Assembly: GCA_018064525.1 (NCBI GenBank)
Contig: JAGHVB010000006.1
Coordinates: 1 to 64,000, forward strand
Length of the DNA stretch: 64,000 bases
Reading direction: 5' to 3'
From: Candidatus Treponema merdequi
Lineage (GTDB): Bacteria > Spirochaetota > Spirochaetia > Treponematales > Treponemataceae
In this document: piece by piece, positions 28,852-57,198 of the stretch
Layout of the letters: each line of letters starts with the position of its first letter
How positions within the stretch are numbered: position 1 is the first letter of the stretch
Translations under genes and position numbers: made by a program
Notes under the pieces: generated by a model
Seen by the model: only the letters and a program-made list of their open reading frames with translations
Told to the model about the DNA's origin: nothing
Databases searched by the model: none

Positions 28852-28910
28852 AAAGAGCTTGGGTTGAGAGAAAGGGTTTGAGTTTTCAGTATTTATTAAC
28901 TGGAGAAAAT

Positions 28911-30935: not shown

Positions 30936-32159
30936 ATGGCAATGAAACGTAATACACGTGAACAAATTCTAAACGAAGCATTCAAGCTTTGTCTTAGACC
31001 TCGCAGTTCAATGTTTTCTCTTTCTGAAGTGGCAGAAAAAGTTGGAATTTCCAAGGCTGCCATTTTCCGTCATTTTAAAAATAAGGAAGAACTGCTTTCG
31101 GAAATGAGAAATCTTTTCATGTCTGATGTTGCTTCAATTTTGACAAAAAAGAAATATTTTTTTTCCGGTGAAAATCTTGAGATTTGTGGTTTTGAACAGT
31201 TCCGCGAAATAAATTTCAATGTCATTTCTTTCTTTTTTGATAAACCTGAATATCTTGGTTTTTTTCTAAATCTTAAAAATTTATCAAGTGGAATTGGTTC
31301 CGGGCTTCTGGAAGGTCTTGAAGAACATGGCGTTCATTTTTCTGATGAATTTAAAACAAAAGTTGTTTCTACACGTTTCGTAAAACTATATTTCTGTATT
31401 GCGACAATGATTTTTTATTTTATGAGATATATGTTCATTGAAAAGGAAAATGTAAAGGAAACAAGAGAAGAATTTATTGAAAGAATAATAAGGCTTACCT
31501 GGAATGGAATCGGGCGCGAGGAAATTCCATTTAATAAAGAAAGATTAAGTGAACTTAATAAAATTTGTGATGTAAGTAAAATTGCAAAAGTTGAAGATAC
31601 CAGATTTTTTAAGGCATTTGCAAAAGTGTTTGCAGAAAACGGAATTAACGGTGTAACGATTGAGCGTCTTAGTGAAGAACTTAATCTTGCCAAAAGCAGT
31701 TTGTATTCATATTTTAATAATAAAGCTGAATTTATAAATAAGATGCTTTATCAGGAAATTTCTTCCATAAGAAATGTTCTGATTGAAAAACTTAAGAATG
31801 TGAAAACTTTTGATGAAATGATTTATGTCATTATTAAAACAGAAAGTAATTATCTTCGTGAACGTCCTTTCGTTGTTATGATGCATTGCTGGGCTTCGGA
31901 AAGTTATAACAGTTCGAATGATGCAGATAAAAAGAAAAGTCAGATTGATTTTTCACTTCCTGTCTGTTTTAAAGATGCAATTTATGAAGAAATTTCTGAA
32001 AAGGTTTTTATCGGATGGGTTTCTGCTTTAATCGGCGAGATGGCAACTTTTGTCAGTATAAAAGACAGAAAATTTTTGGGTGAGCAAAAAGATTATGCTT
32101 ACGACATTTTCAATTTGATTGAATGTGGCGTGCATAAAACAATAGATTTATCTGCATAA
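30936..32159 (+). CDS. Double-HTH TetR-family regulator
   Basis: A 407-residue regulator holding two complete TetR-type DNA-binding domains. The first (about 6-55) has SLSEVAEKVGISKAAIFRHFKNKEELL. The second (about 222-272) has TIERLSEELNLAKSSLYSYFNNKAEFI. Each is followed by an all-helical region of ligand-domain type. Ordinary TetR proteins are about 200 residues with one such domain and dimerise; this looks like a fused tandem dimer. The 22-bp palindrome over its own promoter is the likely operator. The three genes that follow encode a complete RND efflux pump, so it probably senses a pump substrate. A second ATG (30942) is a possible alternative start. Confidence 0.88.
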   Translation: MAMKRNTREQILNEAFKLCLRPRSSMFSLSEVAEKVGISKAAIFRHFKNKEELLSEMRNLFMSDVASILTKKKYFFSGENLEICGFEQFREINFNVISFFFDKPEYLGFFLNLKNLSSGIGSGLLEGLEEHGVHFSDEFKTKVVSTRFVKLYFCIATMIFYFMRYMFIEKENVKETREEFIERIIRLTWNGIGREEIPFNKERLSELNKICDVSKIAKVEDTRFFKAFAKVFAENGINGVTIERLSEELNLAKSSLYSYFNNKAEFINKMLYQEISSIRNVLIEKLKNVKTFDEMIYVIIKTESNYLRERPFVVMMHCWASESYNSSNDADKKKSQIDFSLPVCFKDAIYEEISEKVFIGWVSALIGEMATFVSIKDRKFLGEQKDYAYDIFNLIECGVHKTIDLSA

Positions 32160-32207: not shown

Positions 32208-33680
32208 ATGAAAAAAATTAGTACAAAACAGTTTGTTAAAAAGATTGCAGCATTTGCGTTCTGTCTTTTTACAGGATTTGCAGTTTGTGCAGAAGAAAAC
32301 AAACAGACGGCTGTCGTATTACCTGGAAATCCGGCAGCAGATGAAGAAATCATTCTTACAGTTGATGATGCTGTTGATTATTCAGTTGAACACAGTTTGA
32401 CTTTGTCTAATTCGCAGATTGATCTCGAACTTGCAAAATGGAAATCCTATGTTGCATGGAATACATTTTTGCCGACAGTTAATCTGACAGGAACTATGGC
32501 AAGAGCAAATGATGTTGCTTCTTCATTGCAGCAGGCAAACAGCATGGGTGCTCTTTTTAATAAGCTTAATATTCCTTTTACAGAAACTAAGGAAACAGAA
32601 AGCATTCACTGGTCAGCAATGGGAAATCTTTCTGTTTCATTCAATTTCAGCGTTGCAATGATTCAGTCGATGAGAGCAAATATCGAAGGATATCAGAGTG
32701 GAAAAATCACCTGGGAACAGGCTGTTAAAAATAATGCAATCAATGTAAGAAAAACTTTTTATCAGGTTCTTCTTGCACAGGAAAAACTTTCCATTTCGAA
32801 AGCTAACCTTATAAACGCAAAAAACCGTATGGATCAGGCAGCTGTAAATTATAAAAACGGTTACATTCCTGAAATGCAGTACCTTCAGTCACAGGTTCAG
32901 TATTTGAATCAGGTTCCATCGGTAGAACAGGAAGAAACAACTTATGAACTTGCAGTTAAAGGTCTTCTTAATATGATTGGTATGTCTCTTGATACAAAGG
33001 TAAAACTTGTTGGTGAAATTAATCCGGTTTTTGTTGATGAAAAACTTGATGTTCAGGATCTTACTGAAAAAGCTATTGCTAATAATTTAAGCCTTAAATC
33101 TTTAAGACAGCAGATTAAAATTTTGAAAATCAACAAAAGCGCTGCTGATCTCGGAACATATATTCCTGCAATTGCAATTTCATGGAATGGTCAGCCGACA
33201 ATTTCCAATGCGTTTGAAAATGACTGGGCAAAAAAAGATAACTGGAGTGACAGAGGTGCTTTGACTTTGTCTTTAGCATGGAACATTACAAATATGCTTC
33301 CGTGGTCTTCAACAAGAACTCAGGCAAAAGAACTTCAGTCTAATATTGATAAACTGGAAAACACTTTGCAGAATACAGAAGAACAGATGAAGCTTGGCGT
33401 TATTCAGGCCGTTTCAGGTCTTGAACAGAGCCGTAAGGCAATTACTTCAAGTGAGCGAAATGTTGAACTTGCAGAAAAATCTTATTCTTTGACATGGCAG
33501 GCATACAGAAACGGTACAACAGAATATCTTTCATTGGCAGATACAGAAAGTCAGCTCAAGGCTGCAAAACTTGGTCTTGCAAATGCAAAATATAATTACT
33601 TAATCAGCTTGATGGATCTTGAAAATACAATCGGTTCATCAATTGAAAATGAAAAGACTTCAAACACAGGAGATAAATAA
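32208..33680 (+). CDS. TolC-family outer-membrane efflux channel
   Basis: A 490-residue outer-membrane channel protein with a signal peptide (cleavage near AVCAEE, about residue 29) and two OEP repeats of long amphipathic helices rich in Gln, Asn and Ala. The start ILTVDDAVDYSVEHSLTLSNSQIDLELAK is the typical OEP entry. It is preceded by AGAGGAG. It is the first gene of the RND pump operon and would form the trimeric exit duct for the pump. Confidence 0.9.
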   Translation: MKKISTKQFVKKIAAFAFCLFTGFAVCAEENKQTAVVLPGNPAADEEIILTVDDAVDYSVEHSLTLSNSQIDLELAKWKSYVAWNTFLPTVNLTGTMARANDVASSLQQANSMGALFNKLNIPFTETKETESIHWSAMGNLSVSFNFSVAMIQSMRANIEGYQSGKITWEQAVKNNAINVRKTFYQVLLAQEKLSISKANLINAKNRMDQAAVNYKNGYIPEMQYLQSQVQYLNQVPSVEQEETTYELAVKGLLNMIGMSLDTKVKLVGEINPVFVDEKLDVQDLTEKAIANNLSLKSLRQQIKILKINKSAADLGTYIPAIAISWNGQPTISNAFENDWAKKDNWSDRGALTLSLAWNITNMLPWSSTRTQAKELQSNIDKLENTLQNTEEQMKLGVIQAVSGLEQSRKAITSSERNVELAEKSYSLTWQAYRNGTTEYLSLADTESQLKAAKLGLANAKYNYLISLMDLENTIGSSIENEKTSNTGDK

Positions 33681-33681
33681 T

Positions 33682-34590
33682 ATGAAGAAAATTATTTTAG
33701 CAGCAGTTATTACAGCAATTGTACTTACATCATTTACAGGTTGCAGTAAACAAGAGGCTAACAAAGGTAAAGGAGATGTAGAAGCAGTTTTTGCTATTAA
33801 TGCATATAAAGTTTCTCCTACAACTCTTGATGATTATCTTGAATTTGGTGGTGATGTTGATGCCGCTTCTTCAGTTGCAGTAATGCCGGATACAGCAGGT
33901 AAGATTTCACAGATTTATGTAAAGGTTGGTCAGAAAGTAACAAAGGGTCAGATTCTTTGTGCAGTTGATGCAAGCCGTCCTGGTATGGTTTTTGCAGCCA
34001 GCCCTGTAAGAGCTCCTGTTGATGGAACTGTTACTTATTTTCCTGTTGTAATCGGAACAAGTGTTGCACAGTCAAGCGTAGTTGCAAAAGTTGCAAGTAT
34101 CACAAAACTTGAAATTGAAACTTCTGTTCCAGAAAGATTTATTTCCAGAATCAGTATGAATCAGAAAGCAAAACTTTCTTTCAACGCATATCCTGGTGAA
34201 ACATTTGATGCGCATATTACAGAAATCAGCCCGGTTCTTGATACTTCTTCAAGAACAATGAACATCAAACTTTCAATTGATAAAAATGATCCAAAAATCA
34301 AAATCGGTATGTATGCAAAAATCCACCTTGTAACAGAACATAAAGAAAACGTAACTGTATTGCCTTATGGAACTGTAATTACAAGAAAAGGTGAAAATTA
34401 TGTATTTATCGTTGAACAGGATGGGGAACAGTCAAAAGCAGTTCTTTCACCAGTAAAAGTCGGAATCCGTGTTGATAACTATCAGGAAATTTTACAGGGT
34501 GTTACAAATGGTGACATCGTAGTTATCAAAGGTCAGACTTTGTTAAGTGACGGTTCTTTAGTAAATGTTGTTTCAGTTTCTGAAAATTAA
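33682..34590 (+). CDS. RND efflux periplasmic adaptor (membrane fusion) lipoprotein
   Basis: A 302-residue HlyD/AcrA-type adaptor with a lipobox (SFTGC) in its signal sequence. The biotinyl-lipoyl-like halves (GKISQIYVKVGQKVTKGQILCAVD and APVDGTVTYFPVVIGTSV) are close together, so the alpha-hairpin is very short or absent. A beta-barrel and membrane-proximal domain follow. ATG 33682 with AGGAGATAAATA is the start. It joins the TolC protein to the RND pump. Confidence 0.9.
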   Translation: MKKIILAAVITAIVLTSFTGCSKQEANKGKGDVEAVFAINAYKVSPTTLDDYLEFGGDVDAASSVAVMPDTAGKISQIYVKVGQKVTKGQILCAVDASRPGMVFAASPVRAPVDGTVTYFPVVIGTSVAQSSVVAKVASITKLEIETSVPERFISRISMNQKAKLSFNAYPGETFDAHITEISPVLDTSSRTMNIKLSIDKNDPKIKIGMYAKIHLVTEHKENVTVLPYGTVITRKGENYVFIVEQDGEQSKAVLSPVKVGIRVDNYQEILQGVTNGDIVVIKGQTLLSDGSLVNVVSVSEN

Positions 34591-34605
34591 TTTTGGAGTG
34601 TGAGT

Positions 34606-37600
34606 ATGTCTCTTTCAGAGCGTTCAGTAAATAAACCGACAACGGTTTTAATGATTTTTATTTTGTTGGTTGCGCTTGGAATTTATGCAGCGTTAAACCT
34701 TCCTATCGACAGATTTCCGGATATGGAACTTCCATATATTGCCATCATGACAACTTATGAAAATGCTGGTCCGGAAGAAGTTGAACAGAGTGTAACACGT
34801 CTTTTGGAAAGTTCACTTTCGGGTGTATCAGGTTTGAAAAAAATGTCTTCTCAGTCTTCAACAGGACAGAGTTTGATTTATCTTGAAATGAACTATGGTA
34901 CAAATCTTGATGAATCCGTCGCGAGCTGTCGTGATAAAATTGATATCGTCCGTAAATATTTGCCGGATGATTCAGATTCACCTGTAATGTTTAAGATGGA
35001 CCCTTCTATGATGCCGATTATGTCAATTGCAATTAAAGGTAATCGTACACCAGAAGAGCTTCGTAAACTTGCAGAAGATGTTGTTCAGCCAAAACTTGAA
35101 CAGGTAGATGGAATTGCTTCAGCAAATATTTCCGGTGGTCGTGAAAAATGTATCCGCGTTGATATTCCACGCGACAGACTTGAAGCTTACAATTTGACTA
35201 TTACTGCAGTTGCACAGATGATTGGTGCTCAGAACGTTCAGAGTGCCGGTGGTTCGATTACATCTGGTGATATTAACTACACGATTCAGTCTGCAGGTAA
35301 ATATCATTCCCTTGAAGATGTTAAAGATACAGTAATTTCATGGAAGGTAACTTCTGCAGAACCGGGAGCTGTTCCTCAGGTAAGAACAATTAAACTTCGT
35401 GATATTGCAGATGTTTATGAAGGATATAAAAAACAGTCTACACTTGCTTTCATGAATGGTGAACCTTGTGTTTCTCTTTCATTGCAGCGTCAGTCAGGTA
35501 AAAACTCTGTTCAGGCTGCAAAAAAAGTAAGAAAGCAGCTTGAAAACATTAAGACAATTTTACCTACAGATGTTTCGATGCTTGAAATCTGGAACACAAC
35601 AGACTCAATTGAAGCTACAATCAACGATGTAATTAAATCGGTAGTTGAAGGTGCATTCCTCGCTATTCTCGTTTTGATTGTTTTCTTGCGTTCCGTAAAG
35701 AGTACATTGATTATCGGTATTTCAATTCCAGTTTCACTTCTTGTTACAATCGTTTTGATGTGGCTTCGTGGAATGACTCTCAACATGATTTCTCTTGCCG
35801 GTCTTTTGATTGGTGTAGGTATGCTTGTAGATAACTCAATCGTAGTTCTTGAAAACATTTACTCTTACCGCCAGAAAGATGCAAAACCAAAAGTTGCTGC
35901 CGTTCTTGGTTCACAGGAAATGGTTGCGGCTATTACTTCTTCAACTTTGACAACAATCTGTATTTTCTTGCCGATGATCATGCTTAAACAGAAAATGGGA
36001 ATGATCGGTCAGCTTCTTGATGACCTTGCAGTTACAATTGTGTTCTCACTTGTATGTTCGTTGATTGTTGCTATTACACTTGTTCCGGTTTTGTCTTCAA
36101 GTTATTTGATTGTAAGTAATGCCGGTGACAGACGCGATAATGACGGAAAAATCAACAGAGCTTTAGGAAGATTCTTTGACAGACTTGATACTGCATATTC
36201 GAATGCAGTTGCAAAAACATTGCGTCATAAAAAAATTCTTCTTGTTGGAATTTTTGCACTTTTTGCATTAAGTATTTTTACAGTAGTCAAAATCGGTTAT
36301 GTATTCATGCCGGAATCAGAAAGTTCAAACGTTTCAATTTCAATTACAATGCCTAAAGGAACTCGTCTTGATATTACAGAAGGTGTAGTAAAAGAAATCG
36401 AATCTATCGTCAATCAGGAAGTTGTTGGTATTAAACATTTGAGTTCTACTGTTGGTGGTGGCGGTTGGGGAAGTTCCAGCGCTGATACAAATACAGCAAC
36501 AGTTCGTATCAAACTTTATGATGAACACGATAGATTGCCTGGATATGATAATGCACAGGCTGTAAAAGATAAGATGAGACCTTACTTTACAAAATTCCCT
36601 GGTGCAGAAATTCAGTTTGGTAAACGCCAGGACGGAATGGGAAATGGTCTTATCGTAGATATCCGTTGTGATGACCTTCAGCTTCTTGCATCGCAGACTA
36701 AAAAGATTGAAGAACTTTTGAAAGAAAAAAGTACAGACTATATTGATGAAGTTTCTTCAAATCTTGAAGACGGTTTGCCGGAAGTAAAAATTGTTTTTGA
36801 TCGTGAATTGATGTATAACCTTGCTCTTAATGTTTATACAGTTGGTGCAGAAATTAAAGCAAATATTGACGGTACAACTGCAACACGTTATGAAGACAAA
36901 GGTGATGAAATCGATTTGATTGTTTCTCTTTCAGAAGAAGATAAAGCAAAACTTACAGATTTGGACAGTATCTTCGTAACAAACTCAAATGGAACGAGAA
37001 TTCCTATTTCGACATTCGGACATTATGAAGAATCAACTTCTCCTGTTAGCATTCTTCGTCAGGAACAGACTCGTATGACACAGATTACTTTGACTCCAAA
37101 GAAAGGACTTTCAATTCAGGACATTCAGTTAAAGGTTGATGCATTGATAAAAGAGAATCTCCCGCAGGAAGAAGGCGTAACAATTTCATTCTCTGGAGAT
37201 AACGCAGACTTTATTGAAGCTGCAATCAACTTTGCTGTTGTAATCATCATGGCATCTGCACTTGTATTTGCAATCATGGCCAGCCAGTTTGAATCATTCA
37301 AAGATCCGTTCATTGTTATCTTTACAATTCCATTGTCATTCATTGGTGTTGTTATGATTTATCTCTTCAGTGGTCAGAAGATTTCAATGGTTTCAATCTT
37401 CGGATTCTTAATGCTTGTCGGAATGATTGTAAACAACGGTATCGTACTTGTAGACTATACAAACCTTTTGCGTCGTCGTGGTTATGAACTCTTTGAAGCA
37501 TGTGTTGAAGCTTCAAGAAGCCGTTTGCGCCCAATTTTGATGTCAACTTTGACAACAGTAATTTCTTTGATTCCTATGTCATTCTTCCCAAGTGAAGGTA

Positions 37601-38055
37601 CAGAAATGATTCAGCCTATTTCTATGACAGTACTTGGTGGTCTTACATTTGGTTCATTGATGACATTGTTTGTAATGCCTTCTTTGTATTACATCTTTAA
37701 TGCCGGTTACGGAAGAAAAATTGCAAGAATTAACCGTAAACTTACTAAGCTTGAAGATCTTCGTTACAATGACAACTATAATCAGATTGCAATTGAAAAG
37801 AAGATCAAGAGAGTTCAGAAGAAGAAGAGCAGACTTGAAATTAAAGAATATAATGAAAAAGAAGGATTTGTTTCTGTTATTCAGGGTGAAGATGATGTTA
37901 CATTAAAAAATTCTGCTGGTGGAACTTCTAAAGCCGCAGCCTCTTCAGAAGAAGAAAAACCGGTAAAGCCAAGAAGAACCCGTACAGCATCTAAGTCACG
38001 TGCAGCAAAAACAGAAACAATAAAATCAGAAGCTGTAAAGTCTGAGGAGGAATAA
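34606..38055 (+). CDS. RND efflux transporter, inner-membrane pump
   Basis: A 1149-residue AcrB/HAE-type RND permease with twelve transmembrane helices and two large periplasmic loops. The proton-relay region GVGMLVDNSIVVLENI in TM4 and the repeat GFLMLVGMIVNNGIVLVDYTNLLRRRG in the second half are intact. The C-terminal ~110 residues form an added charged tail (Lys/Arg-rich, then Glu/Ala/Lys) that looks disordered or coiled and exceeds the usual RND end. TGGAG before ATG 34606 decides the start over GTG 34600. The export substrate is not indicated. Confidence 0.93.
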   Translation: MSLSERSVNKPTTVLMIFILLVALGIYAALNLPIDRFPDMELPYIAIMTTYENAGPEEVEQSVTRLLESSLSGVSGLKKMSSQSSTGQSLIYLEMNYGTNLDESVASCRDKIDIVRKYLPDDSDSPVMFKMDPSMMPIMSIAIKGNRTPEELRKLAEDVVQPKLEQVDGIASANISGGREKCIRVDIPRDRLEAYNLTITAVAQMIGAQNVQSAGGSITSGDINYTIQSAGKYHSLEDVKDTVISWKVTSAEPGAVPQVRTIKLRDIADVYEGYKKQSTLAFMNGEPCVSLSLQRQSGKNSVQAAKKVRKQLENIKTILPTDVSMLEIWNTTDSIEATINDVIKSVVEGAFLAILVLIVFLRSVKSTLIIGISIPVSLLVTIVLMWLRGMTLNMISLAGLLIGVGMLVDNSIVVLENIYSYRQKDAKPKVAAVLGSQEMVAAITSSTLTTICIFLPMIMLKQKMGMIGQLLDDLAVTIVFSLVCSLIVAITLVPVLSSSYLIVSNAGDRRDNDGKINRALGRFFDRLDTAYSNAVAKTLRHKKILLVGIFALFALSIFTVVKIGYVFMPESESSNVSISITMPKGTRLDITEGVVKEIESIVNQEVVGIKHLSSTVGGGGWGSSSADTNTATVRIKLYDEHDRLPGYDNAQAVKDKMRPYFTKFPGAEIQFGKRQDGMGNGLIVDIRCDDLQLLASQTKKIEELLKEKSTDYIDEVSSNLEDGLPEVKIVFDRELMYNLALNVYTVGAEIKANIDGTTATRYEDKGDEIDLIVSLSEEDKAKLTDLDSIFVTNSNGTRIPISTFGHYEESTSPVSILRQEQTRMTQITLTPKKGLSIQDIQLKVDALIKENLPQEEGVTISFSGDNADFIEAAINFAVVIIMASALVFAIMASQFESFKDPFIVIFTIPLSFIGVVMIYLFSGQKISMVSIFGFLMLVGMIVNNGIVLVDYTNLLRRRGYELFEACVEASRSRLRPILMSTLTTVISLIPMSFFPSEGTEMIQPISMTVLGGLTFGSLMTLFVMPSLYYIFNAGYGRKIARINRKLTKLEDLRYNDNYNQIAIEKKIKRVQKKKSRLEIKEYNEKEGFVSVIQGEDDVTLKNSAGGTSKAAASSEEEKPVKPRRTRTASKSRAAKTETIKSEAVKSEEE

Positions 38056-41568: not shown

Positions 41569-44343
41569 ATGAAAAACGGTAAAATTAAGATTATGGGCAA
41601 AATTTTATCTACAGTTATTATTTATCCTTTGACACAGATTATTGAGACTGCTTACGTATTTTTTTACAGATTTTTTAAGAATCCTGGAATTTCTGTAATT
41701 GGTGTAAGTCTTACAGTAACATTATTATGTTTGCCATTGTATATTGTTGCAGAACGCTGGCAGCAAATTCAGCGGGATACTGAAGCAAAATTAAATCCCA
41801 GAGTAAATAGAATTAAAAAAGCTTTTAAAGGTGATGAGCAATACATGATGCTTAATACTTATTACAGACAGAATCATTATCATCCTTTGATGGCTTTGAG
41901 ATCTTCTTTTGGTCTCTTGATTCAGATTCCGTTTTTTATTGCGGCTTACGGTTTTCTTTCGAATATGCAGGCATTAAAGGGACAGTCGTTCCTGTTTATT
42001 CGCGATATGGGTGCACCTGATGCGCTGTTTTCGATTGGAAGCTTTAGTGTAAATATCCTTCCGATTGCGATGACTTTGATTAATATTATTGCAGGTGCAA
42101 TCTATACAAAAGGATTTGCAGTAAAAGAAAAAGTTCAAATTTATGGAATGGCACTTGTTTTTCTGGTTCTTCTCTATACAAGCCCGTCAGGTCTCGTTCT
42201 ATACTGGACGATGAATAATGTTTTTTCACTTATAAAAAATATATTTTATAAATTAAAAAATCCTTTAAAAGTTTTATATGGAATTTTGTGCGCTGCCGTT
42301 TTACTGATGGATGTTTATCTGATATTCTTTTTCAGCAGATCTTCAAGAATTACTTACCTTCGTATAGCAGCGGTTATCGGAATTTCATGTCTTCTTTTAA
42401 TTCCATATCTTGTAAAAGCATTTAATTATCTTGTAAAAACTGTATTGAATCCGCTTGTTAAAGATAAAAAAATCAGATTTACAGTTTTTATTTTTTCTGC
42501 AATCGGATGTGCTTTGCTGACCGGCATGGTTTTGCCGGGACTTTTAATTTCTTCAAGCGTTCAGGAATTTGCAGATATTGCAGGACATTCAAATCCGGAT
42601 TTTTATGTTTATAATTCGCTTTTACAGGCAGCAGGATTATTTATATTCTGGCCTGTATGCATTTATTTTTTATTTCATGACAGAGTTCAGACTTTGATAA
42701 CTGTTTTATTGTGCTGTTTTTTAGTCTGCGGTCTTATAAATGCATTCGCATTTACAGGAACATATGGAATTTTAACACAATGGCTTATCTTTGATGCAGG
42801 ATTAAAATTTGATTCAGCTGCAAAAATAATTTTAAATATTGTTTTAATTGTTTTTGCAGTTTCCCTGATTTTAATTCTGATGAAATTTTATCCGAAAGTT
42901 TTATCTTCAATAACATCAGTTTTAGTAACAGGTGTTTTGATATTTGGAATTGTAAATCTTGTAAAAATAAATTCAGCATACAGACAATATAAAAACAGCA
43001 GTTCTAATGTCTTAACAGAAAATCAGAAAATCGAAAAAGATATTACGCTTTCATCAAATGGAAAAAATGTAATTGTAATTATGCTTGACCGTGCGATAAG
43101 CGCATATACAAAAGAAATTTTTGATGAATATCCTGCTTTGTATTCACAGTTTAAAGGATTTGAATTATATCCTAATACATTGAGTTTTAATGGTCATACA
43201 TTGACTGGTTCGCCGCCGCTTTTTGGAGGTTATGAATACAGTCCTCGTGAAAGACTTGCAAGAAAAGATAAAAATCAAAAGGAACTTCATAACGAAGCAC
43301 TTCTTGTAATGCCGCGTGTATTTACAGAGCAGGCAGATTTTTCTGCACAGATTGCAGATTTACCATGGGCAAACTGGTCATGGTATTCTGACATGTCTAT
43401 TACAAATCCATATGATAAAATTGAAGGAAAAAATCTTGCCAGAAAATATAATCAGTACTGGAACAACAACAATCCGAAGTTTTTAAGAAATGATGATTTA
43501 CTGGACAAAGTTTATAACCGTGATTTTTTCTGGTTTGCACTTTTCAGGGAAATGCCGCTTTTTTTACGACCGTTTATATACTATGACGGAACATGGTGGA
43601 ATTCTGAAAATATAAGTAAATCATTTCCATACAACGCTCAATACCCGGAACTTGATTATTTAAGCGAAATGACTTCTGTAATTTCTGATAATTCAAATAT
43701 ATTTTTATCTTTTGATAATGAAGTTACACATGATAAAGACAGATATGATGCTCCGCTTTATGTACCTTCTTCTGGCTGGGGAGTTCCAGGCACATCTCCA
43801 TTGGGAATACATTTTTCATTTGGTTCCAATGCTGCAGCAATTCATCGTCTTGGAGAATGGTTTGAATTTTTACAGCAGAACAATTGTTATGATAATTCGA
43901 GAATCATTATTGTTTCTGATCATGGTGCAGGAAATGAAGAATATCCTCCTGTTGATTATGGTTATGATAATCCGCTGATAGAAGGAATTTCATCATTGGA
44001 AAATCATAAAAATTTTTACAATGCATTTTTAATGGTAAAAGATTTTAACTCACAGGATACTCTTAAGATTAATCCACAGTTTATGACAAATGCCGATGTT
44101 CCTTTGATTGCATTTGATTCCATAATAGAAAGTCCTGTTAATCCGTTTACTGGAAAAGCTTTCTCAAAAAATGAAGCAGAAAAAATAAAAGAGAATGGTG
44201 TAGAGATTTCTACTTCCCGCCTCTGGAATATTGATGAGGTAGAAAATATTTCAACTTTACCATTGAATGACAATGACTGGGTTAGAGTAAAAGAAAATAT
44301 TTTTGACAGCAAAAACTGGACAGTAATAAAATCAAAAAAATAG
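41569..44343 (+). CDS. YidC/Oxa1-like membrane domain fused to a sulfatase-fold domain
   Basis: A 924-residue fusion. Residues about 10-235 match YidC/Oxa1 insertases: PLTQIIETAYVFFYRF, LNPRVNRIKKAF, the LIQIPFFIAAYGFLSNM region and SGLVLYWTMNNVFSLIKN. The positively charged TM1 residue five positions before the conserved LP proline (Arg in E. coli and Bacillus) is Thr51 here. Residues about 240-470 add five or six helices. Residues about 500-910 form an alkaline-phosphatase/sulfatase-fold domain with Asp507 in VIMLDRA, a Thr/Ser-rich nucleophile region (NGHTLTGSPP), and metal ligands in VSDHG (784-786). It heads the glycan cluster. I infer a polysaccharide-modifying transferase or hydrolase carrying a repurposed insertase domain. 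Confidence 0.75.
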   Translation: MKNGKIKIMGKILSTVIIYPLTQIIETAYVFFYRFFKNPGISVIGVSLTVTLLCLPLYIVAERWQQIQRDTEAKLNPRVNRIKKAFKGDEQYMMLNTYYRQNHYHPLMALRSSFGLLIQIPFFIAAYGFLSNMQALKGQSFLFIRDMGAPDALFSIGSFSVNILPIAMTLINIIAGAIYTKGFAVKEKVQIYGMALVFLVLLYTSPSGLVLYWTMNNVFSLIKNIFYKLKNPLKVLYGILCAAVLLMDVYLIFFFSRSSRITYLRIAAVIGISCLLLIPYLVKAFNYLVKTVLNPLVKDKKIRFTVFIFSAIGCALLTGMVLPGLLISSSVQEFADIAGHSNPDFYVYNSLLQAAGLFIFWPVCIYFLFHDRVQTLITVLLCCFLVCGLINAFAFTGTYGILTQWLIFDAGLKFDSAAKIILNIVLIVFAVSLILILMKFYPKVLSSITSVLVTGVLIFGIVNLVKINSAYRQYKNSSSNVLTENQKIEKDITLSSNGKNVIVIMLDRAISAYTKEIFDEYPALYSQFKGFELYPNTLSFNGHTLTGSPPLFGGYEYSPRERLARKDKNQKELHNEALLVMPRVFTEQADFSAQIADLPWANWSWYSDMSITNPYDKIEGKNLARKYNQYWNNNNPKFLRNDDLLDKVYNRDFFWFALFREMPLFLRPFIYYDGTWWNSENISKSFPYNAQYPELDYLSEMTSVISDNSNIFLSFDNEVTHDKDRYDAPLYVPSSGWGVPGTSPLGIHFSFGSNAAAIHRLGEWFEFLQQNNCYDNSRIIIVSDHGAGNEEYPPVDYGYDNPLIEGISSLENHKNFYNAFLMVKDFNSQDTLKINPQFMTNADVPLIAFDSIIESPVNPFTGKAFSKNEAEKIKENGVEISTSRLWNIDEVENISTLPLNDNDWVRVKENIFDSKNWTVIKSKK

Positions 44344-44351
44344 GAATCAAT

Positions 44352-45377
44352 ATGCCGGCAAAGATTTCGTATTACACACTTTTATTTATTAATGAAGACA
44401 GTTCAAAACTTGGAAATGGTGTCAGCGGAACATATTCTGAAAAAATTGCAAAGTATGTTAAATGCTGCAGTTCATTAAATAAAAGTCTTGTCCTTAACGG
44501 ACAGACAAAGTTAAAGGTAATCACAAATAATTCTGATCTGATAAAAAAAATTGATTCAGAACTTGAATGTATTGAAATTAAATTTGCTACAAATGTTGAT
44601 CCTTCAATTCCATTTGCATCTGCGCATTGTAAGCTTGATGTGTTCAATTATTTTTCTACACTTTCAGAAAAAGATTACAGCATTCTTCTTGACAGCGATG
44701 TTTTGTGTATTAACAGCGAAGCAAAAATTTTAAAAAGATTTTCTTCAGGGCTTCCGGTGATTTATGATATTACAGACCAGCAGTTTCAGGGTTGCGGAAC
44801 AGAACGCGTTTGTAAAGATAAAGAACTGATTGTCAGAAAAAGTTTTAATGATGAAAATTTTATTTCAAGTGGAATCTGGGCGGGCGGAGAATTTATTGGA
44901 GGCAGTGCTTCTTTTTATAAAGCATTGTATTCTGCGTGCAAAAAAATTTTACCTGTGTATATTTCAAATCATGAAAAATTGTTTCACAATGGAGATGAAA
45001 TGATTGTTTCATGTGCGCTTGAATATTTAATTCAGAAGAAAAAAATATTTGTATTTGATGCTGGAATTTCGGGACTTATCGGCCGCTATTATGATTCAAG
45101 TACAAATCATGTTCAGCATATCTGGAAATATTTTAAGACAAATATGTTTGTGCATCTTCCAATGGATAAAGATTTTCTTTCTTCTGAAAAAATTGATTTT
45201 TCTGATTGTGAAAAAATGATTTGTTCACTTGAAACTGAACTTCAAAATAAAAAGACTTTTATTGAAGCAACTGTCCGTGCAGACAGAGTTCTTCAGAAGC
45301 TGATAAAGGCTTTTTATAAAATCAGAGCATTTATAAAAAAGATGACAGGCCATGGAAATGCGCCTGTAGAATATTAG
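44352..45377 (+). CDS. Putative glycosyltransferase (GT-A-like, DxD)
   Basis: A 341-residue protein I cannot place in a named family. It starts eight bases after the fusion protein. A DYSILLDSDVLCIN segment (about residues 109-122) looks like a GT-A DxD sugar-nucleotide/metal motif, following a beta strand and preceding ASFYKAL and NGDEMIVSCALEYL blocks as in GT8-like or capsule transferases. No membrane helix or signal peptide is seen. The C-terminus is basic and may touch the membrane. A transferase adding a residue to the surface glycan is the likeliest role. Confidence 0.5.
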   Translation: MPAKISYYTLLFINEDSSKLGNGVSGTYSEKIAKYVKCCSSLNKSLVLNGQTKLKVITNNSDLIKKIDSELECIEIKFATNVDPSIPFASAHCKLDVFNYFSTLSEKDYSILLDSDVLCINSEAKILKRFSSGLPVIYDITDQQFQGCGTERVCKDKELIVRKSFNDENFISSGIWAGGEFIGGSASFYKALYSACKKILPVYISNHEKLFHNGDEMIVSCALEYLIQKKKIFVFDAGISGLIGRYYDSSTNHVQHIWKYFKTNMFVHLPMDKDFLSSEKIDFSDCEKMICSLETELQNKKTFIEATVRADRVLQKLIKAFYKIRAFIKKMTGHGNAPVEY

Positions 45378-45432
45378 AAAATATAAGAAGCTGGTTAGCG
45401 GATTATTTTTAAGTTATAGATAAGGATTTAAA

Positions 45433-46431
45433 ATGTACAAAACAAAAACACCTGTTGCGATGATTATTTTTAACCGTTATGACAATGCTCATGCAGTTCT
45501 TGAACAGATTAAAAAAGCTGAACCTCAGGAATTGTTTATTATTGCAGACGGTCCTCGTGCAAACCGTGAAGGTGAAAAAGAAAAATGTGAAAAGGCCCGT
45601 TCAATCTGTGATGAAGTTGACTGGAAGTGTAATGTACATAAAATTTTTTCTGATGTTAACTTGGGATGTGCAAAACGCGTGACATCAGGATTGAATGAAG
45701 TCTTTAGTAAAGTCGAGCGTGCTTTGATTTTTGAAGATGACTGTATTCCGGCAGAAAGTTTTTTTGAGTTTGCAGATGAAATGCTTGAAAGATATAAAGA
45801 CGAAGACAAAATAATGCTTGTTTCTGGAAACAACAAATGTTTTGATCCTTCAAAAAAAGATGGCGGTATTACAAAATTCCATCAGAATAAAAATAATCAG
45901 AATGAAAGTTATTTCTTTTCAAAACAGTCTCAGATCTGGGGCTGGGCAACATGGCGTCGTGCCTGGAATAAAATGGATCTTGCGATGAAGAGCTGGCCTG
46001 AATTAAGAAAAGAAAAACTCGTTGAAAGTATTTATAAAAAACCGTCGCATCGTTATTACTGGAAGTCCGCATTTGATTATGTTTACAATGGTCGTACAAA
46101 CAGCTGGGCTTTTCCATGGAATCTTTCTGTCTGGCGGGAAGACGGTTTTTCGATAATTCCAAAAGTAAATCTTATTCGAAATGCCGGTTTTAATGCGGAT
46201 GCAACACACACAAGCGGCAAAAGCATTTTTGAAAATCTGGATTACGGTAATCTTGAATTTCCTCTTGTCCATCCTGATATTTCAAACGGAATATGCCGCA
46301 ATTTTGAAATGGATATGCTCGAAATGAAAAGCCGCATAAAAGACGCAAAACAGCTTCCGTTTCCTTTGAATATGTTTGCATCAAAGGCAAAATGGGTTAT
46401 ACTTGGATTACTTGGGAAAGATAAAAAATAA
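45433..46431 (+). CDS. GT2-like glycosyltransferase (HlpA-like)
   Basis: A 332-residue GT-A-fold transferase. It starts VAMIIFNRYDNAHAVLEQIKK, the nucleotide-binding entry strand, and has LIFEDDCIPAESFFEFAD with an EDD in the place of DxD. SQIWGWATWRRAWNK and SWAFPWNLSVWREDG are typical of hemolysin HlpA-like and O-antigen-linked transferases. There is no signal peptide. A GGATTTAAA leader precedes the ATG. Acceptor and sugar are unknown. Confidence 0.7.
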   Translation: MYKTKTPVAMIIFNRYDNAHAVLEQIKKAEPQELFIIADGPRANREGEKEKCEKARSICDEVDWKCNVHKIFSDVNLGCAKRVTSGLNEVFSKVERALIFEDDCIPAESFFEFADEMLERYKDEDKIMLVSGNNKCFDPSKKDGGITKFHQNKNNQNESYFFSKQSQIWGWATWRRAWNKMDLAMKSWPELRKEKLVESIYKKPSHRYYWKSAFDYVYNGRTNSWAFPWNLSVWREDGFSIIPKVNLIRNAGFNADATHTSGKSIFENLDYGNLEFPLVHPDISNGICRNFEMDMLEMKSRIKDAKQLPFPLNMFASKAKWVILGLLGKDKK

Positions 46432-46469
46432 GTGGAATTTGTAGAAACGAATTTCTGTTTGGAGATAAT

Positions 46470-47600
46470 ATGATTCATTTTAATGTTCCGCCATTTGTTG
46501 GTACAGAATTTACATATATGAAAGAAGCCGTAGAAAATCATAAAATATGCGGTGATGGTCCTTTTACAAAAAAATGCAATGAATGGCTTGAAAAAAGATT
46601 TAATGCAAAAAAAGTTATGCTTACTACAAGTGGAACTTCTGCACTTGAAATGGCAGCATGGCTCTGCAATCTTAAACCTGGCGATGAAGTAATTTTACCA
46701 AGTTTTACTTTTTCTTCTACGGCAACAGCATTTGCGCTCGTCGGTGCGAAACTTGTTTTTGTTGATGTAAGAAAAGATACGATGAACATCGATGAAAAAT
46801 TGATTGAAAAGGCAATTACTCCAAAAACCCGTGTAATTGTTGCTGTTCATTATGCCGGTGTTGCATGCGATATGGATGCGATTATGGAAATTGCAAAAAA
46901 ACATAATCTTAAAGTTGTAGAAGATGCAGCTCAGGGTGTAATGTCAACTTATAAAGGAAAAGCACTCGGTACTATTGGTGACTTTGGCTGTTATTCATTT
47001 CATGAGACAAAAAATTATTCAATGGGAGAAGGCGGTGCAATCGTAATCAACGATGAGTCAGCAATTGAAAAAGCAGAAATCCTTCGAGAAAAAGGAACAA
47101 ACCGTTCTAAATTTTACCGCGGTCAGATTGCAAAATATAATTGGGTTGACTGGGGTTCAAGCTATCTTCCGAGTGATCTGAATGCAGCTTATCTCTGGGC
47201 TCAGCTTAATGCTGCTGATGAAATCAACAACAACAGACTTTCAACATGGAATAAATATAACGAAGTTTTTAAACCGCTTGCCGATAAAAAAATCATTGAG
47301 CTTCCGGTTGTTCCTTCTGACTGCGTTCATAATGCACATATGTTCTATATAAAATGCCGTTCACTTGAAGAAAGAACAGCGTATATTCAGTTTATGAAAG
47401 AGAATGACATTCTGTGCGTATTCCATTATGTTCCACTTCACAGTGCGCCTGCAGGTCTTAAGTTTGGTCGTTTTGACGGAGAAGATAAATATACAACTTC
47501 TGAAAGTGATAAACTTGTACGCCTTCCGCTTTACTACAATATTGAAAAGTCAGACCTTGAAAAAGTAATTGCAAAGACTCTGGAATTTTTTAATAAATAA
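46470..47600 (+). CDS. wecE: dTDP-4-amino-4,6-dideoxygalactose transaminase (WecE/RffA-like)
   Basis: A 376-residue DegT/DnrJ/EryC1 aminotransferase. The PLP lysine is Lys181 in CYSFHETKNYSMGEGGA, a motif typical of WecE/RffA enzymes that convert dTDP-4-keto-6-deoxyglucose to dTDP-Fuc4N. EDAAQGVMSTYKGKALGTIGDFG and the substrate loop FHYVPLHSAPAGL support the call. The glucose-activation enzymes (RmlA/RmlB) are not in this window. Its product, an amino-deoxy sugar nucleotide, would feed the neighbouring transferases. GGAG lies ahead of ATG 46470. Confidence 0.88.
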   Translation: MIHFNVPPFVGTEFTYMKEAVENHKICGDGPFTKKCNEWLEKRFNAKKVMLTTSGTSALEMAAWLCNLKPGDEVILPSFTFSSTATAFALVGAKLVFVDVRKDTMNIDEKLIEKAITPKTRVIVAVHYAGVACDMDAIMEIAKKHNLKVVEDAAQGVMSTYKGKALGTIGDFGCYSFHETKNYSMGEGGAIVINDESAIEKAEILREKGTNRSKFYRGQIAKYNWVDWGSSYLPSDLNAAYLWAQLNAADEINNNRLSTWNKYNEVFKPLADKKIIELPVVPSDCVHNAHMFYIKCRSLEERTAYIQFMKENDILCVFHYVPLHSAPAGLKFGRFDGEDKYTTSESDKLVRLPLYYNIEKSDLEKVIAKTLEFFNK

Positions 47601-47642
47601 TTTTTTTGAATTTATAAATTTGATTTACAAAAGGATTGCAGA

Positions 47643-48950
47643 ATGAAAATAATTCACCTTGCTACAACAAATGCCGGCGGTGCGGGAATCGCTGCAACAA
47701 GAATTCATAATCTTTTGACAGAAATGGGACATGAATCTCATCTTTATGTTCAGCACAAAGAACTTGATTCCCAGAATACAACTGAACTTTGTAATAAAGG
47801 CGGACAGGGTAAAAAGTACATGGTGAAAATGCGTTTTGAAAGAAAGCTTGCAAAGTTTTTAAAACGCAATCAAAAAGATACAGACTGGCAGCGTTTTAGA
47901 AAAGATGATGTTTATTGCTATAATGATTATGATGAAGAAAATAAAGAAGGTTTTTTCCCTGGACTTGAAAATAAAATTGATCTGGAAAATGTTGATGTTA
48001 TTTTTGTTCATCAGATAATCGGGTTTTTAAATACTTATGATGTTAAACGTCTTTATGATAGAACTCATGCGAGAGTAATTTTTACAATGATGGATATGGC
48101 TCCTGTTACTGGAGGCTGTCATTATGCATGGGACTGCAGAAAATTTTTTACAACCTGTTTTAACTGTCCTGCTCTTCCTTATGAATTAAATACCCGCAGT
48201 CATTTTCAACTTGAAGCAAAAGCTCAGAATATTTTATATATGAATGCAGAAATAATGAGCAATGCAGATTATGATCTGGATTTTGCAAAAAATTCCGCAG
48301 TTCCATTTTCAAAATACTGGAAATATTTTTATCCTGTTGATGAAGAAGTTTTTACTCCCGTTGAAATTAAAAAAGAAGAAAATACAAAATATCTTTTTTC
48401 AATTGCCAATTTTGCAAATGATGTGAGAAAAGGATTTACTTATGTTCTGCAGACACTGATAAATCTTGATAAAAAAATTCCTGATGGTCAGAAAGTGAAA
48501 ATGCTTTGTCTTGCTCCTTCTCTTTTTGATGGTTATAAATTTGAAAAAGTGGAATTTGAAAAGTTTGGTTTTTGTAAGAATGTAAATGATCTGGCAAAGG
48601 TTTATAATAAAGCAGATGTTTTTATGTGCACTTCGGTAGAAGATTCTGCACCGATGATGCTTGAAGAAGCACTTCTCTGCGGTGTTCCGACAGTGAGCTT
48701 TGATGTTGGAACTGCAAAGCAGTTTATCAAAGATGGAAAAAATGGCTATGTTGCCGAAAGATTTAATGCACTTGATATGGCCGAAAAAGTTTATACACTT
48801 TTGTACAAAACTCCGAAAACTCTTTTAAAACCAGAAGCAATTCACGACGGAATGGTAAAGATTTTAGGAAAAAAAGTTATTGTCAGTCAGTTTGAAGATA
48901 TTCTTGCCCAGAAAAAGGCCGATGCAAAATCACGCGGGACTTCAAAATGA
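47643..48950 (+). CDS. Group 1 (GT4-like) glycosyltransferase
   Basis: A 435-residue GT-B transferase. The N-terminal HLATTNAGGAGIAATRIHNLL loop and C-terminal SVEDSAPMMLEEALLCGVPTVSFDVGTAKQFI are the standard GT4 donor-site blocks. Residues about 155-185 hold several cysteines (GGCHYAWDCRKFFTTCFNCPALPY), a pattern seen in a subgroup of surface-polysaccharide transferases. The next gene overlaps it by four bases (ATGA), giving tight translational coupling. Confidence 0.88.
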   Translation: MKIIHLATTNAGGAGIAATRIHNLLTEMGHESHLYVQHKELDSQNTTELCNKGGQGKKYMVKMRFERKLAKFLKRNQKDTDWQRFRKDDVYCYNDYDEENKEGFFPGLENKIDLENVDVIFVHQIIGFLNTYDVKRLYDRTHARVIFTMMDMAPVTGGCHYAWDCRKFFTTCFNCPALPYELNTRSHFQLEAKAQNILYMNAEIMSNADYDLDFAKNSAVPFSKYWKYFYPVDEEVFTPVEIKKEENTKYLFSIANFANDVRKGFTYVLQTLINLDKKIPDGQKVKMLCLAPSLFDGYKFEKVEFEKFGFCKNVNDLAKVYNKADVFMCTSVEDSAPMMLEEALLCGVPTVSFDVGTAKQFIKDGKNGYVAERFNALDMAEKVYTLLYKTPKTLLKPEAIHDGMVKILGKKVIVSQFEDILAQKKADAKSRGTSK

Positions 48951-49831
48951 AAATAATTAAATACACCGGTGGAATCGGAAATCAGATATTTCAGTATGCT
49001 TTTGCATATATTCTCGAAAAAAAAGGATTTGAAGTAAAGGCAGATACAAGCCTTTATGATAAACCTCATTTTCGTGCCGGTGTTGATATGAGTCACGGTT
49101 ATTTTGCTGTTTCAGATGTTTTTGGACTGCAGGTAAAAGAAGCTTCAAAAAAAGAAATCAACAGACTTGGAACAAGTGCAAATACATTTATTGAAAGAAT
49201 TCAAAAAAAATTTTTTAAAAAAGCATCTCACATTGTAGAGTATGATTCAAAATTTAATCCTGATAATTTAACTGACATCCGTGATTTATATCTGGATGGA
49301 TATTTTCAAAATCCTTTGTATTGGAAAGGATATGAAAAAGATATTAAAAATCTTTTTGTATTTAAGCTTCCGTTAAATGAAAAATCAAAACAGCTTGAAA
49401 AAATTCTTGAAGAATCAAAAAATAAAACATGTTCAATTCATATTCGCCGCGGAGATTATTTAAATCATCCGACACTTTTTGTATGTGATAAAAAATATTT
49501 TGAAAATGCAATTTCAAAAATGATTGAACTTTGCCCGCAGATAGAAAAGTTTGTAATCTTTTCTGATGATATTGAATGGTGTAAATCAAATCTTGATACA
49601 CACGGAAAAGAAAATATTTTTGTTGACTGGAATCGTGATAAAGACAGCTGGCAGGATATAGCTCTTATGACAAAATGTTCAAATAACATAATTCCAAATT
49701 CAAGTTTTAGTTTCTGGGGTGCATATTTAAATCAGAATCAGGATGCAAAAATCATCTGTCCTGAAATCTGGTCTAAAAATGGTGCTAAAGATATGATAGT
49801 TCAAGACTGGTTTACAGTTTCTGTTAACTGA
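48947..49831 (+). CDS. GT11 alpha-1,2-fucosyltransferase-like protein
   Basis: A 294-residue GT11-family transferase. The donor motif HIRRGDY is preserved in CSIHIRRGDYLNHP. The N-terminal entry reads GGIGNQIFQYAFAYILEKKG, and the SSFSFWGAYLNQN block forms the C-terminal motif. Members add L-fucose from GDP-fucose in alpha-1,2 linkage, often making blood-group-like or mimicry antigens. Its presence predicts GDP-fucose synthesis genes elsewhere in the genome. It overlaps the GT4 gene by four bases. Confidence 0.88.
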   Translation: MKIIKYTGGIGNQIFQYAFAYILEKKGFEVKADTSLYDKPHFRAGVDMSHGYFAVSDVFGLQVKEASKKEINRLGTSANTFIERIQKKFFKKASHIVEYDSKFNPDNLTDIRDLYLDGYFQNPLYWKGYEKDIKNLFVFKLPLNEKSKQLEKILEESKNKTCSIHIRRGDYLNHPTLFVCDKKYFENAISKMIELCPQIEKFVIFSDDIEWCKSNLDTHGKENIFVDWNRDKDSWQDIALMTKCSNNIIPNSSFSFWGAYLNQNQDAKIICPEIWSKNGAKDMIVQDWFTVSVN

Positions 49832-49870
49832 TTGTTTTTATTTTTTAAAGTTTTTATTTAGGAGAATTGA

Positions 49871-50734
49871 ATGAAAAAAGTTTTTTTATCAGTTGTAATT
49901 CCTTTGTATAATTCTGAAAAGACTTTGAATGAATCAATTGGTTCTGTTGCTGCAGAAATTGGAAAATTGTATTCTGATGAAAAAAATGTAAAACAGTTTT
50001 CTCTTGAAAATACTGTTTCTGAAATTATTTTGTGTGATGACGGTTCTTTTGATAAAACTTCTATATTGTGTGACCAGCTTGCAGAGAAAATCAATTCTGA
50101 AAAAAAAGAAATTGAAGTTAAAGTGATGCATCTTAAAAATGGCGGAGTTGCCAGTGCGCGTAATATCGGAATGAAATATTCGCGTGGTGAAGTGATTGCG
50201 TTTAATGATTCTGATGACAGATGGTTATGTGGAACTTTGGTAAAACGTCTGACACTTTTAAAAAATGAAAATGCAGAATTAATAACGGCAAATCACGAAA
50301 TAGAATCACAGCGTGTAAAAAAACTTTTACCGACATCATTTCCGAATCTTTACATTGTAAAAACAGAAAATGAGTTATTTAAAAATTATTATACTGTGCA
50401 GAATTCAATTATTTCAAGAAAAATCATTGATGATGGAATATTCTTCAAAGATGGAATGCGATATGCAGAAGAAATGTATTTCTTTTTCCAGGTTTTACAA
50501 AAATATAAATGTCTTTTCTTGAATGAAAAAATGTCAGAAAGTGTACTGCATAAAGAACGTTTCGGGCAGAGCGGTTTAAGTGGAAATCTTAAAGCAATGG
50601 AAAAAGGTGAACTTACAAGTTTATCTTTGACATATAAAGAACTTAAGATGCCTTTTGCAAAATATGTTACCGCCTGTGTTTATTCAATTTTAAAATATTT
50701 CAGACGCGTTTTAATCTGTTCAATCAGAAAATAG
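49871..50734 (+). CDS. GT2 glycosyltransferase
   Basis: A 287-residue GT2 transferase: FLSVVIPLYNSEKTLNESI at the N-terminus, LCDDGSFDKTS, and NDSDDRW as the DxD-type metal motif (about residues 114-120). The C-terminus is short and basic and may peripherally bind the membrane. It is the last gene of the cluster, and the region after it begins the B12 riboswitch. GGAG lies just before ATG 49871. Confidence 0.88.
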   Translation: MKKVFLSVVIPLYNSEKTLNESIGSVAAEIGKLYSDEKNVKQFSLENTVSEIILCDDGSFDKTSILCDQLAEKINSEKKEIEVKVMHLKNGGVASARNIGMKYSRGEVIAFNDSDDRWLCGTLVKRLTLLKNENAELITANHEIESQRVKKLLPTSFPNLYIVKTENELFKNYYTVQNSIISRKIIDDGIFFKDGMRYAEEMYFFFQVLQKYKCLFLNEKMSESVLHKERFGQSGLSGNLKAMEKGELTSLSLTYKELKMPFAKYVTACVYSILKYFRRVLICSIRK

Positions 50735-55677: not shown

Positions 55678-57198
55678 ATGAAAAAAATTTCTTTTTTGAT
55701 TCTGTCATTATTATTAATATTTGCAGGATGTACACAGCCGGGTAATTCTGGAAATCCACCTGTAATATTTCCAAAATTTACTGTGACATATTCAACTGAA
55801 TTTGGAACAACACCTGCTGCAATCTATGTTGAACCAGGTCACATTTTAACAGATAAAGACCTTCCATCTTTACCAGAAACAGAAGACCGTTATTTTACTG
55901 GCTGGGATGTAAAACCAGGAACTAAAATTACCGAAAACATAACAATCACAGCAAGCTGGAAAAAATTTGCCTGCATTAAACCTTTTACTGCAGCAAATGC
56001 AAATGATTTATTGCTGACATTTTTTGAAGTTACAAAAGTTGAAGATTTACCATTTTATTCTGATTTAGGCAGCGGAAAAATCAATGAGATTTACTTTACA
56101 AAAGAAGCAGTGCCTTCAACTTCAACATACAAGCATGATTATAAAACAAGTGATGAAAACATTACTTTTACTGTAAGTTTTGAACAAAGCAACGGAAAAA
56201 ATAGAATATACGTTTCTGGAAACGGAGATCGAATTTATATCAAAAACTGCCGCAAGTTATTTTACTGCTTTGATAACACTATTTGTAATTATGAATGGAT
56301 TGATTTAGAAAACTTATATACTGCAAAAGTAATAGATATGAACTATTTATTTGGAGGCTGTTCTTCTCTTACTACTTTAAATATTTCAAACTTCGATACT
56401 TCAAATGTTACAGATATGAGCTATATGTTCAGTGGATGTACAAAGCTTAAATCTATAGATTTGAGTAATTTTAATACTTCTAATGTTACAGATATGAGCT
56501 TTATGTTTAGTTGTTGTGAAAAATTAAGTTCATTAGATTTAAGCAGTTTTAATACATCAAAAGTTACTGATATGAAGGAAATGTTTCTAATATGTAAATC
56601 ACTTACATCTGTAAATCTTACAAGTTTTGATACTTCAAACGTTACAGATATGTCTTATATGTTTAGTAATTGTACTTCTCTTACTGCTTTAGATTTTTCA
56701 AGCTTTAATACTTCAAATGTTTCTGATATGCAATATATGTTTAATTACTGTCAGAAACTGGAGACATTGGATTTAAGTAAATTTAATACTTCTAACGTAA
56801 AGACAATGAACGATATGATATATGAATGTGAAGGTTTAAAATCTATAAACATCAGTTCATTCAATACTGAAAAAGTAAAGTCTATGGCACGTATGTTATA
56901 TACTTGTAAAAACCTTGAAACTGTGGATATAAGCAGTTTTAATTTTGTTAATGTAATGGATTTAACAAATTTCTTTACCGGTTGTGAGAAATTAAAAACA
57001 ATTTACGCATCTCCTGATTTGGCTATACCTGATTCTTGTAAAACTTCGGCTATGTTTGTTATTTGCAAAAATCTAACAGGCGGCGCAGGAACAAAATATT
57101 CTGATGCCGAAATATCAGATCCAGAAAACTATAATACTGCCGTTTACGCCCGCATCGACGGCGGTCCGTCAAAACCGGGATATTTTACAGCAAAGTAA
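55678..57198 (+). CDS. BspA-family leucine-rich-repeat surface lipoprotein
   Basis: A 506-residue lipoprotein (lipobox IFAGC, Cys18). An InlB-type beta-repeat (about 35-98, with LTDKDLPSLP) precedes an LRR array. From about residue 220 to 430 there are nine or so near-23-residue units of the DUF285/BspA type, each with SNVTDMSYMFSGC and LxSLDLSSFNT-like cores. Such proteins in Treponema, Tannerella and Entamoeba/Trichomonas neighbours mediate adhesion. The beta-repeat is shared with the FGE-fold lipoprotein at 28.9 kb. Repeat units differ enough that the array is not a recent expansion. Confidence 0.87.
   Translation: MKKISFLILSLLLIFAGCTQPGNSGNPPVIFPKFTVTYSTEFGTTPAAIYVEPGHILTDKDLPSLPETEDRYFTGWDVKPGTKITENITITASWKKFACIKPFTAANANDLLLTFFEVTKVEDLPFYSDLGSGKINEIYFTKEAVPSTSTYKHDYKTSDENITFTVSFEQSNGKNRIYVSGNGDRIYIKNCRKLFYCFDNTICNYEWIDLENLYTAKVIDMNYLFGGCSSLTTLNISNFDTSNVTDMSYMFSGCTKLKSIDLSNFNTSNVTDMSFMFSCCEKLSSLDLSSFNTSKVTDMKEMFLICKSLTSVNLTSFDTSNVTDMSYMFSNCTSLTALDFSSFNTSNVSDMQYMFNYCQKLETLDLSKFNTSNVKTMNDMIYECEGLKSINISSFNTEKVKSMARMLYTCKNLETVDISSFNFVNVMDLTNFFTGCEKLKTIYASPDLAIPDSCKTSAMFVICKNLTGGAGTKYSDAEISDPENYNTAVYARIDGGPSKPGYFTAK

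Follow-up and report, generated by a model that had tools for sequence, protein, structure and literature searches.

The window analysed here spans 64,000 nucleotides of Candidatus Treponema merdequi (positions 1 to 64,000 of contig JAGHVB010000006.1). On its forward strand, an ATG at position 41569 opens a single frame that runs uninterrupted to a stop codon at 44343 and encodes a protein of 924 residues. This fusion gene heads a same-strand run of seven genes (41569-50734), most of which are glycan genes. The features of the protein and of the run are listed below with the evidence for each.

41569..44343, + strand: fusion gene, 924 aa; YidC-like domain, seven-helix segment and alkaline-phosphatase (AP)-fold transferase (profiles, model, relatives)
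41569..42261, + strand: YidC/Oxa1-like domain, residues 1-231 (PF02096, E=3.6e-22; Foldseek 3wo7)
41719..41721, + strand: Thr51, at the position of the YidC groove Arg/Lys (T/S/N in 144 fusions)
42262..43005, + strand: seven predicted membrane helices, residues 232-479 (AlphaFold2 model, loop charges)
43057..44340, + strand: AP-superfamily transferase domain, residues 497-924 (Foldseek, VIA, PF00884 in relatives)
43087..43089, + strand: Asp507, predicted first metal ligand (invariant, 143/144 with 1 gap)
43198..43200, + strand: Thr544, predicted nucleophile (invariant, 143/144 with 1 gap)
43729..43731, + strand: His721, predicted substrate-phosphate ligand (144/144)
43918..43923, + strand: Asp784-His785 (DHG motif), predicted metal ligands (144/144; aligned to the DH of LtaS)
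44352..45377, + strand: next gene of the run, 341-aa protein with a DxD motif (LLDSD), no family match
45433..46431, + strand: glycosyltransferase-like protein (weak GT25/GT2 matches in the profile search)
46470..47600, + strand: WecE/FdtB-type sugar aminotransferase (NF008687, 632.7 bits, cut-off 375)
47643..48950, + strand: GT4 glycosyltransferase (PF13692, 7.7e-17)
48947..49831, + strand: GT11 glycosyltransferase (PF01531, 3.5e-29)
49871..50734, + strand: GT2 glycosyltransferase (PF00535, 9.3e-22)

Several other genes of the window were recognized by eye. These are a 655-aa lipoprotein-like ORF whose C-terminal half resembles a formylglycine-generating-enzyme/SUMF domain (28878-30845), a TetR-like double regulator (30936-32159) that precedes a row of TolC-like, membrane-fusion and RND efflux genes (32208-38055), and a BspA-like repeat protein with 'SSLDLSSFNTSKVTDM' units and a lipoprotein signal in front (55678-57198).

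The initial annotation, made from the sequence alone, had described a 924-residue protein that joins a YidC-type part, extra helices and a C-terminal AP-fold part, and this architecture was borne out by profile searches, Foldseek, VIA and an AlphaFold2 model built on an alignment of 63 sequences (pLDDT 88, pTM 0.82). A profile search of the N-terminal part, suggested at that stage, matched PF02096 over residues 40-227 (79.5 bits, cut-off 35), and TIGR03592 (yidC_oxa1_cterm) matched the fusion with 88.1 bits (cut-off 84.3). As the latter score lies above the curated cut-off, pipelines may name such enzymes 'membrane protein insertase YidC'. Model and Foldseek together place the five-helix YidC/Oxa1 fold in the N-terminal part (3wo7, TM-score 0.75 by target length).

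Full-length relatives in one frame (~900 aa, mostly 40–53% identical) are present in most of the 195 same-family genomes searched, often in 2–4 copies per genome, and also in several other families of the phylum. Carriers include Treponema bryantii, T. ruminis, T. zioleckii and a Sphaerochaetaceae genome, and the best 80 matches of a GTDB scan all came from spirochaetes. A tblastn search against plasmids yielded partial YidC-type matches to residues 17-235 only and no fusion, and no description of the fusion was found in a literature search of openly licensed papers. A frameshift or assembly join between the two halves, raised at the outset as the alternative origin, is ruled out by more than 100 uninterrupted relatives; the fusion is real and not an artefact. 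A second copy in the window's own genome (contig C64; L191, 10345-18060) is cut by the contig end and adjoins rfbBADC-like genes and an O-antigen ABC-type ATPase, and the fusions of L181-L183 lie among unrelated genes. The second copy of genome G014 (L174, 11150-13827) consists of a 490-aa frame (YidC-like part and helices) followed by an AP frame with an overlap of ~18 bases, which is either a real split gene or a frameshift.

Within the YidC-like domain, Thr51 lies five residues before the TM1 proline (Pro56), as first reported. Canonical YidC carries a positive residue at this groove position (R in E. coli, K in the window's own genome), which is absent in 144/144 fusions: Thr is found in 77, Ser in 51, Asn in 16, and Arg or Lys in none. 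Three stand-alone YidC-like relatives have Asn. Other charged residues of the domain (R111, E62 and R69) are nearly invariant among the fusions. In a tree that contained five canonical sequences, the YidC-like domains formed one clade apart from canonical YidC with a support of 100/100. The residues at position 51 and the separate clade thus uphold the proposal that this is no ordinary YidC, and the true YidC, expected elsewhere in the genome, was located between rnpA-like and jag-like genes (G000:C79). Compared with the YidC/Oxa1 family (PF02096, TIGR03592), the domain shares the profile, the five-helix fold, the TM1 proline and the cytoplasmic hairpin, but differs in the T/S/N in place of the TM1 Arg/Lys and the near-invariant R111/E62/R69, in being joined to an enzyme, and in not adjoining rnpA. 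It is also the best conserved part of the protein, with 71–77% identity between relatives versus 35–48% for the enzyme part, which suggests, on sequence comparison, that the partner or lipid stays constant while the acceptor varies. For the YidC parts of tandem copies, concerted evolution was considered and dropped, since the within-locus median identity (64%) is barely above that between loci (59%).

The helix segment that follows gave a pLDDT of 94 when modelled alone. Neither Foldseek nor VIA returned a confident PDB match for it, and a sequence search of the PDB with the TM segment yielded no match. The one similarity seen, to MCR-1, is weak (Z 4.0 over 127 residues); the membrane domain of the LtaS/EptA kind has five helices, and seven are predicted here. 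The pattern of loop charges places the hairpin of the YidC part inside and the AP domain outside.

For the C-terminal domain, Foldseek matched LtaS (4uor, E=1e-6), PbgA (6xlp) and EptA (5fgn), as well as MCR-1. VIA-align of residues 497-924 gave Z scores of ~18–20 to LtaS, phosphonate monoester hydrolase, sulfatases and YejM, with a phosphonate monoester hydrolase at the top of the list, tied with others. Together with matches of PF00884 (Pfam Sulfatase, a superfamily model) in 20 of 21 relatives, these results confirm the alkaline-phosphatase-superfamily fold. The VIA range begins at model residue 498, corresponding to LtaS residue 246, and Asp507 presumably occupies the place of Glu255 in S. 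aureus LtaS, with Thr544 as the probable counterpart of the LtaS Thr. An acid, a Thr and an Asp-His pair are present (D507, T544, D784, H785), which we take to be the single-metal set known from LtaS/EptA-type enzymes, the first ligand being Asp in place of Glu; K824 and D843 are also invariant (143–144 of 144 fusions). The Cys/Ser-x-Pro/Ala-x-Arg formylglycine motif of S1 sulfatases is missing: its place reads HTLTGSPPLFGG, and T544 is invariant. Because this set is present and Cys-x-Pro-x-Arg is not, the domain, judged by its residues, is of the LtaS/EptA-type phosphotransferase kind and not a sulfatase. Of the sulfatase-fold domain with metal ligands that the initial annotation had described, the fold and the ligand residues therefore stand, while its residues are not those of a sulfatase or glycan hydrolase. 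The LtaS/EptA/MCR-1/PbgA membrane transferases likewise have an outside AP fold, the Asp/Glu-Thr-Asp-His set and membrane helices before the domain, but their sequence similarity to the fusion is remote, and the fusion differs from them in Asp507 for Glu, an insertase domain in front and a constant TagF-like partner.

This partner emerged from clustering of the neighbouring genes. The dominant neighbour, found in 71 of 98 loci at a median distance of 8 bases, is a 415-aa protein that starts with YIDPGTG and belongs to PF04464, the TagB/TagF kind of CDP-alcohol phosphotransferase (29.6, 57.8 and 33.6 bits versus a cut-off of 22.1). In 59 cases its gene directly adjoins the fusion on the same strand (median gap 2 bases). 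Among 393 genomes of the phylum, and uncorrected for ancestry, 100 contain both genes, 5 the fusion (or its enzyme domain) alone, 3 the TagF-like gene alone and 285 neither, so that the partner occurs in 100/105 fusion genomes versus 3/288 others. One of the five fusion-only genomes has the enzyme without the YidC part, and three are partial assemblies; within the window's genus, the partner is likewise missing from all five genomes without the fusion. The idea, raised initially as a question, that the fusion always sits with glycosyltransferases thus proved too narrow, the constant companion being the TagF-like enzyme. The latter resembles the TagB/TagF CDP-glycerol glycerophosphotransferases in its above-cut-off score and a predicted N-terminal membrane anchor, but constitutes a distinct subfamily with the YIDPGTG start and an association with genes for AEP (2-aminoethylphosphonate), ethanolamine and amino-alcohol activation. 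Fusions outnumber their partners, with 148 fusions to 81 TagF-like genes in the fetched loci and four dispersed fusions to a single partner in one genome (G262). The window's own cluster is without a TagF-like gene; the one in this genome lies on another contig (C48).

The three genomes with only a TagF-like gene are informative in themselves. Two of them (G279, G360) hold split versions, in G279 as separate genes for a YidC-like protein (238 aa), a TagF-like protein (439 aa) and a membrane AP enzyme (607 aa). In both, the split parts adjoin PepM, Ppd and PntC-AEPT, which cover 2-aminoethylphosphonate synthesis and CTP activation. The third (G391) is cut by a contig end and has a TagF-like protein with two AP enzymes. 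In G443, an AP enzyme, a TagD-like cytidylyltransferase, a TagF-like protein and a YidC-like protein are encoded by separate genes in one run, and G489 carries, besides a normal fusion, another in which the YidC-like domain is joined to a second AP subfamily, itself related to the split AP enzyme (E=3e-45). The same parts are hence found both fused and split, and by these sequences the YidC-like part acquired AP enzymes on more than one occasion.

The genes beside the TagF-like gene, the AEP genes among them, represent several routes by which amino-alkyl phosphates or phosphonates are activated with CTP. All point to one kind of group, since AEP is the phosphonate isostere of phosphoethanolamine. 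The f29 loci follow a CDP-ethanolamine logic, with a cytidylyltransferase-kinase and EutH beside the TagF-like gene and the fusion. In the window's own genome, the TagF-like gene on C48 has genes for a PLP enzyme and a TagD-like cytidylyltransferase as neighbours, so the decorating group there is probably an amino-alcohol phosphate. Of the 46 genomes with both PepM and the TagF-like gene, 25 have the two within 6 kb of each other, and 22 genomes have PepM without a TagF-like gene; phosphonate and fusion are therefore not obligatory partners, and other routes exist, which agrees with the LicD-like one reported for phosphonate clusters. Thirty-six of 85 loci, short ones included, showed no activation gene in the vicinity of the TagF-like gene.

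Two gene fusions belong to these activation routes. A nucleotidyltransferase fused to a choline/ethanolamine kinase lies beside the EutH ethanolamine permease (L180, 4806-7407; also L202, L205 and L206), and we read these genes as a surface-decoration operon and not as ethanolamine utilisation. A nucleotidyltransferase fused to a CobD/HisC-like PLP enzyme (L078, 13888-15765; similar in up to 26 loci, below curated cut-offs) may make and activate an amino-alcohol phosphate.

For phosphonate clusters, CTP activation of AEP by PntC has been reported in T. denticola, with later steps unknown there, and LicD-like transferases and glycosyltransferases have been named (PMC6697681). The PntC clusters (Rice et al. 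2019, PMC6697681) share PepM, Ppd, AEPT and PntC with the loci of the split and some fused versions, but the text of that paper does not mention YidC, TagF or sulfatase-type enzymes.

From this context, we consider it about an even call that the protein provides the membrane and transfer functions in a surface-decoration system of three parts, which moves a lipid-linked head group to a glycan. In such a system, CTP would activate an amino-alkyl phosphate or phosphonate (2-aminoethylphosphonate, phosphoethanolamine or a similar amino-alcohol phosphate), and the membrane-anchored TagF-like enzyme (PF04464, YIDPGTG) would take the group off the nucleotide and place it on a lipid at the cytoplasmic face. 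The YidC-like domain, free of the insertion Arg/Lys, would then pass or hold this lipid across the membrane, in the way that insertase grooves can handle lipid head groups, and the outside AP-fold domain, with one metal and Thr544 as nucleophile, would transfer the group to a surface glycan. The lipid acceptor, the lipid movement and the final acceptor are putative assignments within this scheme. Since several fusions share one TagF-like enzyme, that enzyme probably makes a common lipid-linked donor, and each fusion would serve a different acceptor. In vitro, lipids are scrambled by E. coli YidC and by further members of the Oxa1 group (PMC10491306), and by analogy it is reasonable that a YidC-like domain without the insertion Arg could move lipids. 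A pull-down list for MCR-1 that includes YidC (PMC7868338) was judged to be no evidence. Of the functions initially suggested, the positioning or movement of a lipid-linked substrate to be used by the AP domain has the best support from genomic context. As to what is transferred, the partner genes suggest amino-alkyl phosphate or phosphonate groups and not the glycan units of a glycan transferase or hydrolase.

The chief rival holds that the YidC-like domain moves no lipid and serves as an anchor or a dedicated chaperone, for the helices of the AP enzyme or for the TagF-like partner, with an ordinary phospholipid such as phosphatidylethanolamine as AP donor, as in EptA. YidC is by nature a membrane-protein chaperone, the seven fused helices come straight after it, and the nearest folds (LtaS, EptA, PbgA) work without an insertase domain. 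We nevertheless consider this doubtful, because it leaves unexplained why the fusion is paired almost perfectly with a nucleotide-dependent phosphotransferase of the TagF-like kind, why genes for CMP-AEP and CDP-ethanolamine are present, and why Arg/Lys is constantly lost; the window's own genome, moreover, has a general YidC. TagF-family enzymes can also act on lipid-linked glycans, so that the partner might load such a glycan directly in the cytoplasm; the fusion would then flip the glycan, or its AP domain would trim or recycle the phosphoryl group as a hydrolase and not install it. AP folds do include phosphonate monoester hydrolases, one of them first, though tied, in the VIA list, yet several fusions per TagF-like enzyme fit donor-sharing installers better than trimmers and two AP subfamilies have been recruited to the same place, which makes this version unlikely. 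That the domain is an ordinary extra YidC (cf. YidC2) fused by chance to an unrelated enzyme without joint function is, despite PF02096 and TIGR03592 scores over the cut-offs, highly improbable given a fusion kept across several families of the phylum, a YidC part more conserved than the enzyme, split versions that remain in one operon and the existence of a second fusion.

More specifically, and more tentatively than for the system as a whole, the Oxa1-superfamily domain may be a dedicated lipid flippase or scramblase that hands an amino-alkyl phosphate or phosphonate lipid to the fused transferase in a CTP-driven pathway. The transfer of CTP-activated phosphonates and amino-alcohol phosphates to bacterial surface glycans is an open step (PMC6697681), and dedicated lipid movers with insertase folds have been a live question since the in vitro scrambling by YidC (PMC10491306). 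Natural fused and split versions without the insertase Arg/Lys offer material to test both questions. The family also shows that a TIGR03592 score above the cut-off can wrongly give such proteins the name YidC. If the flippase reading is true, the fusion and its partners would fill in the final steps that are missing from phosphonoglycan synthesis in many spirochaetes.
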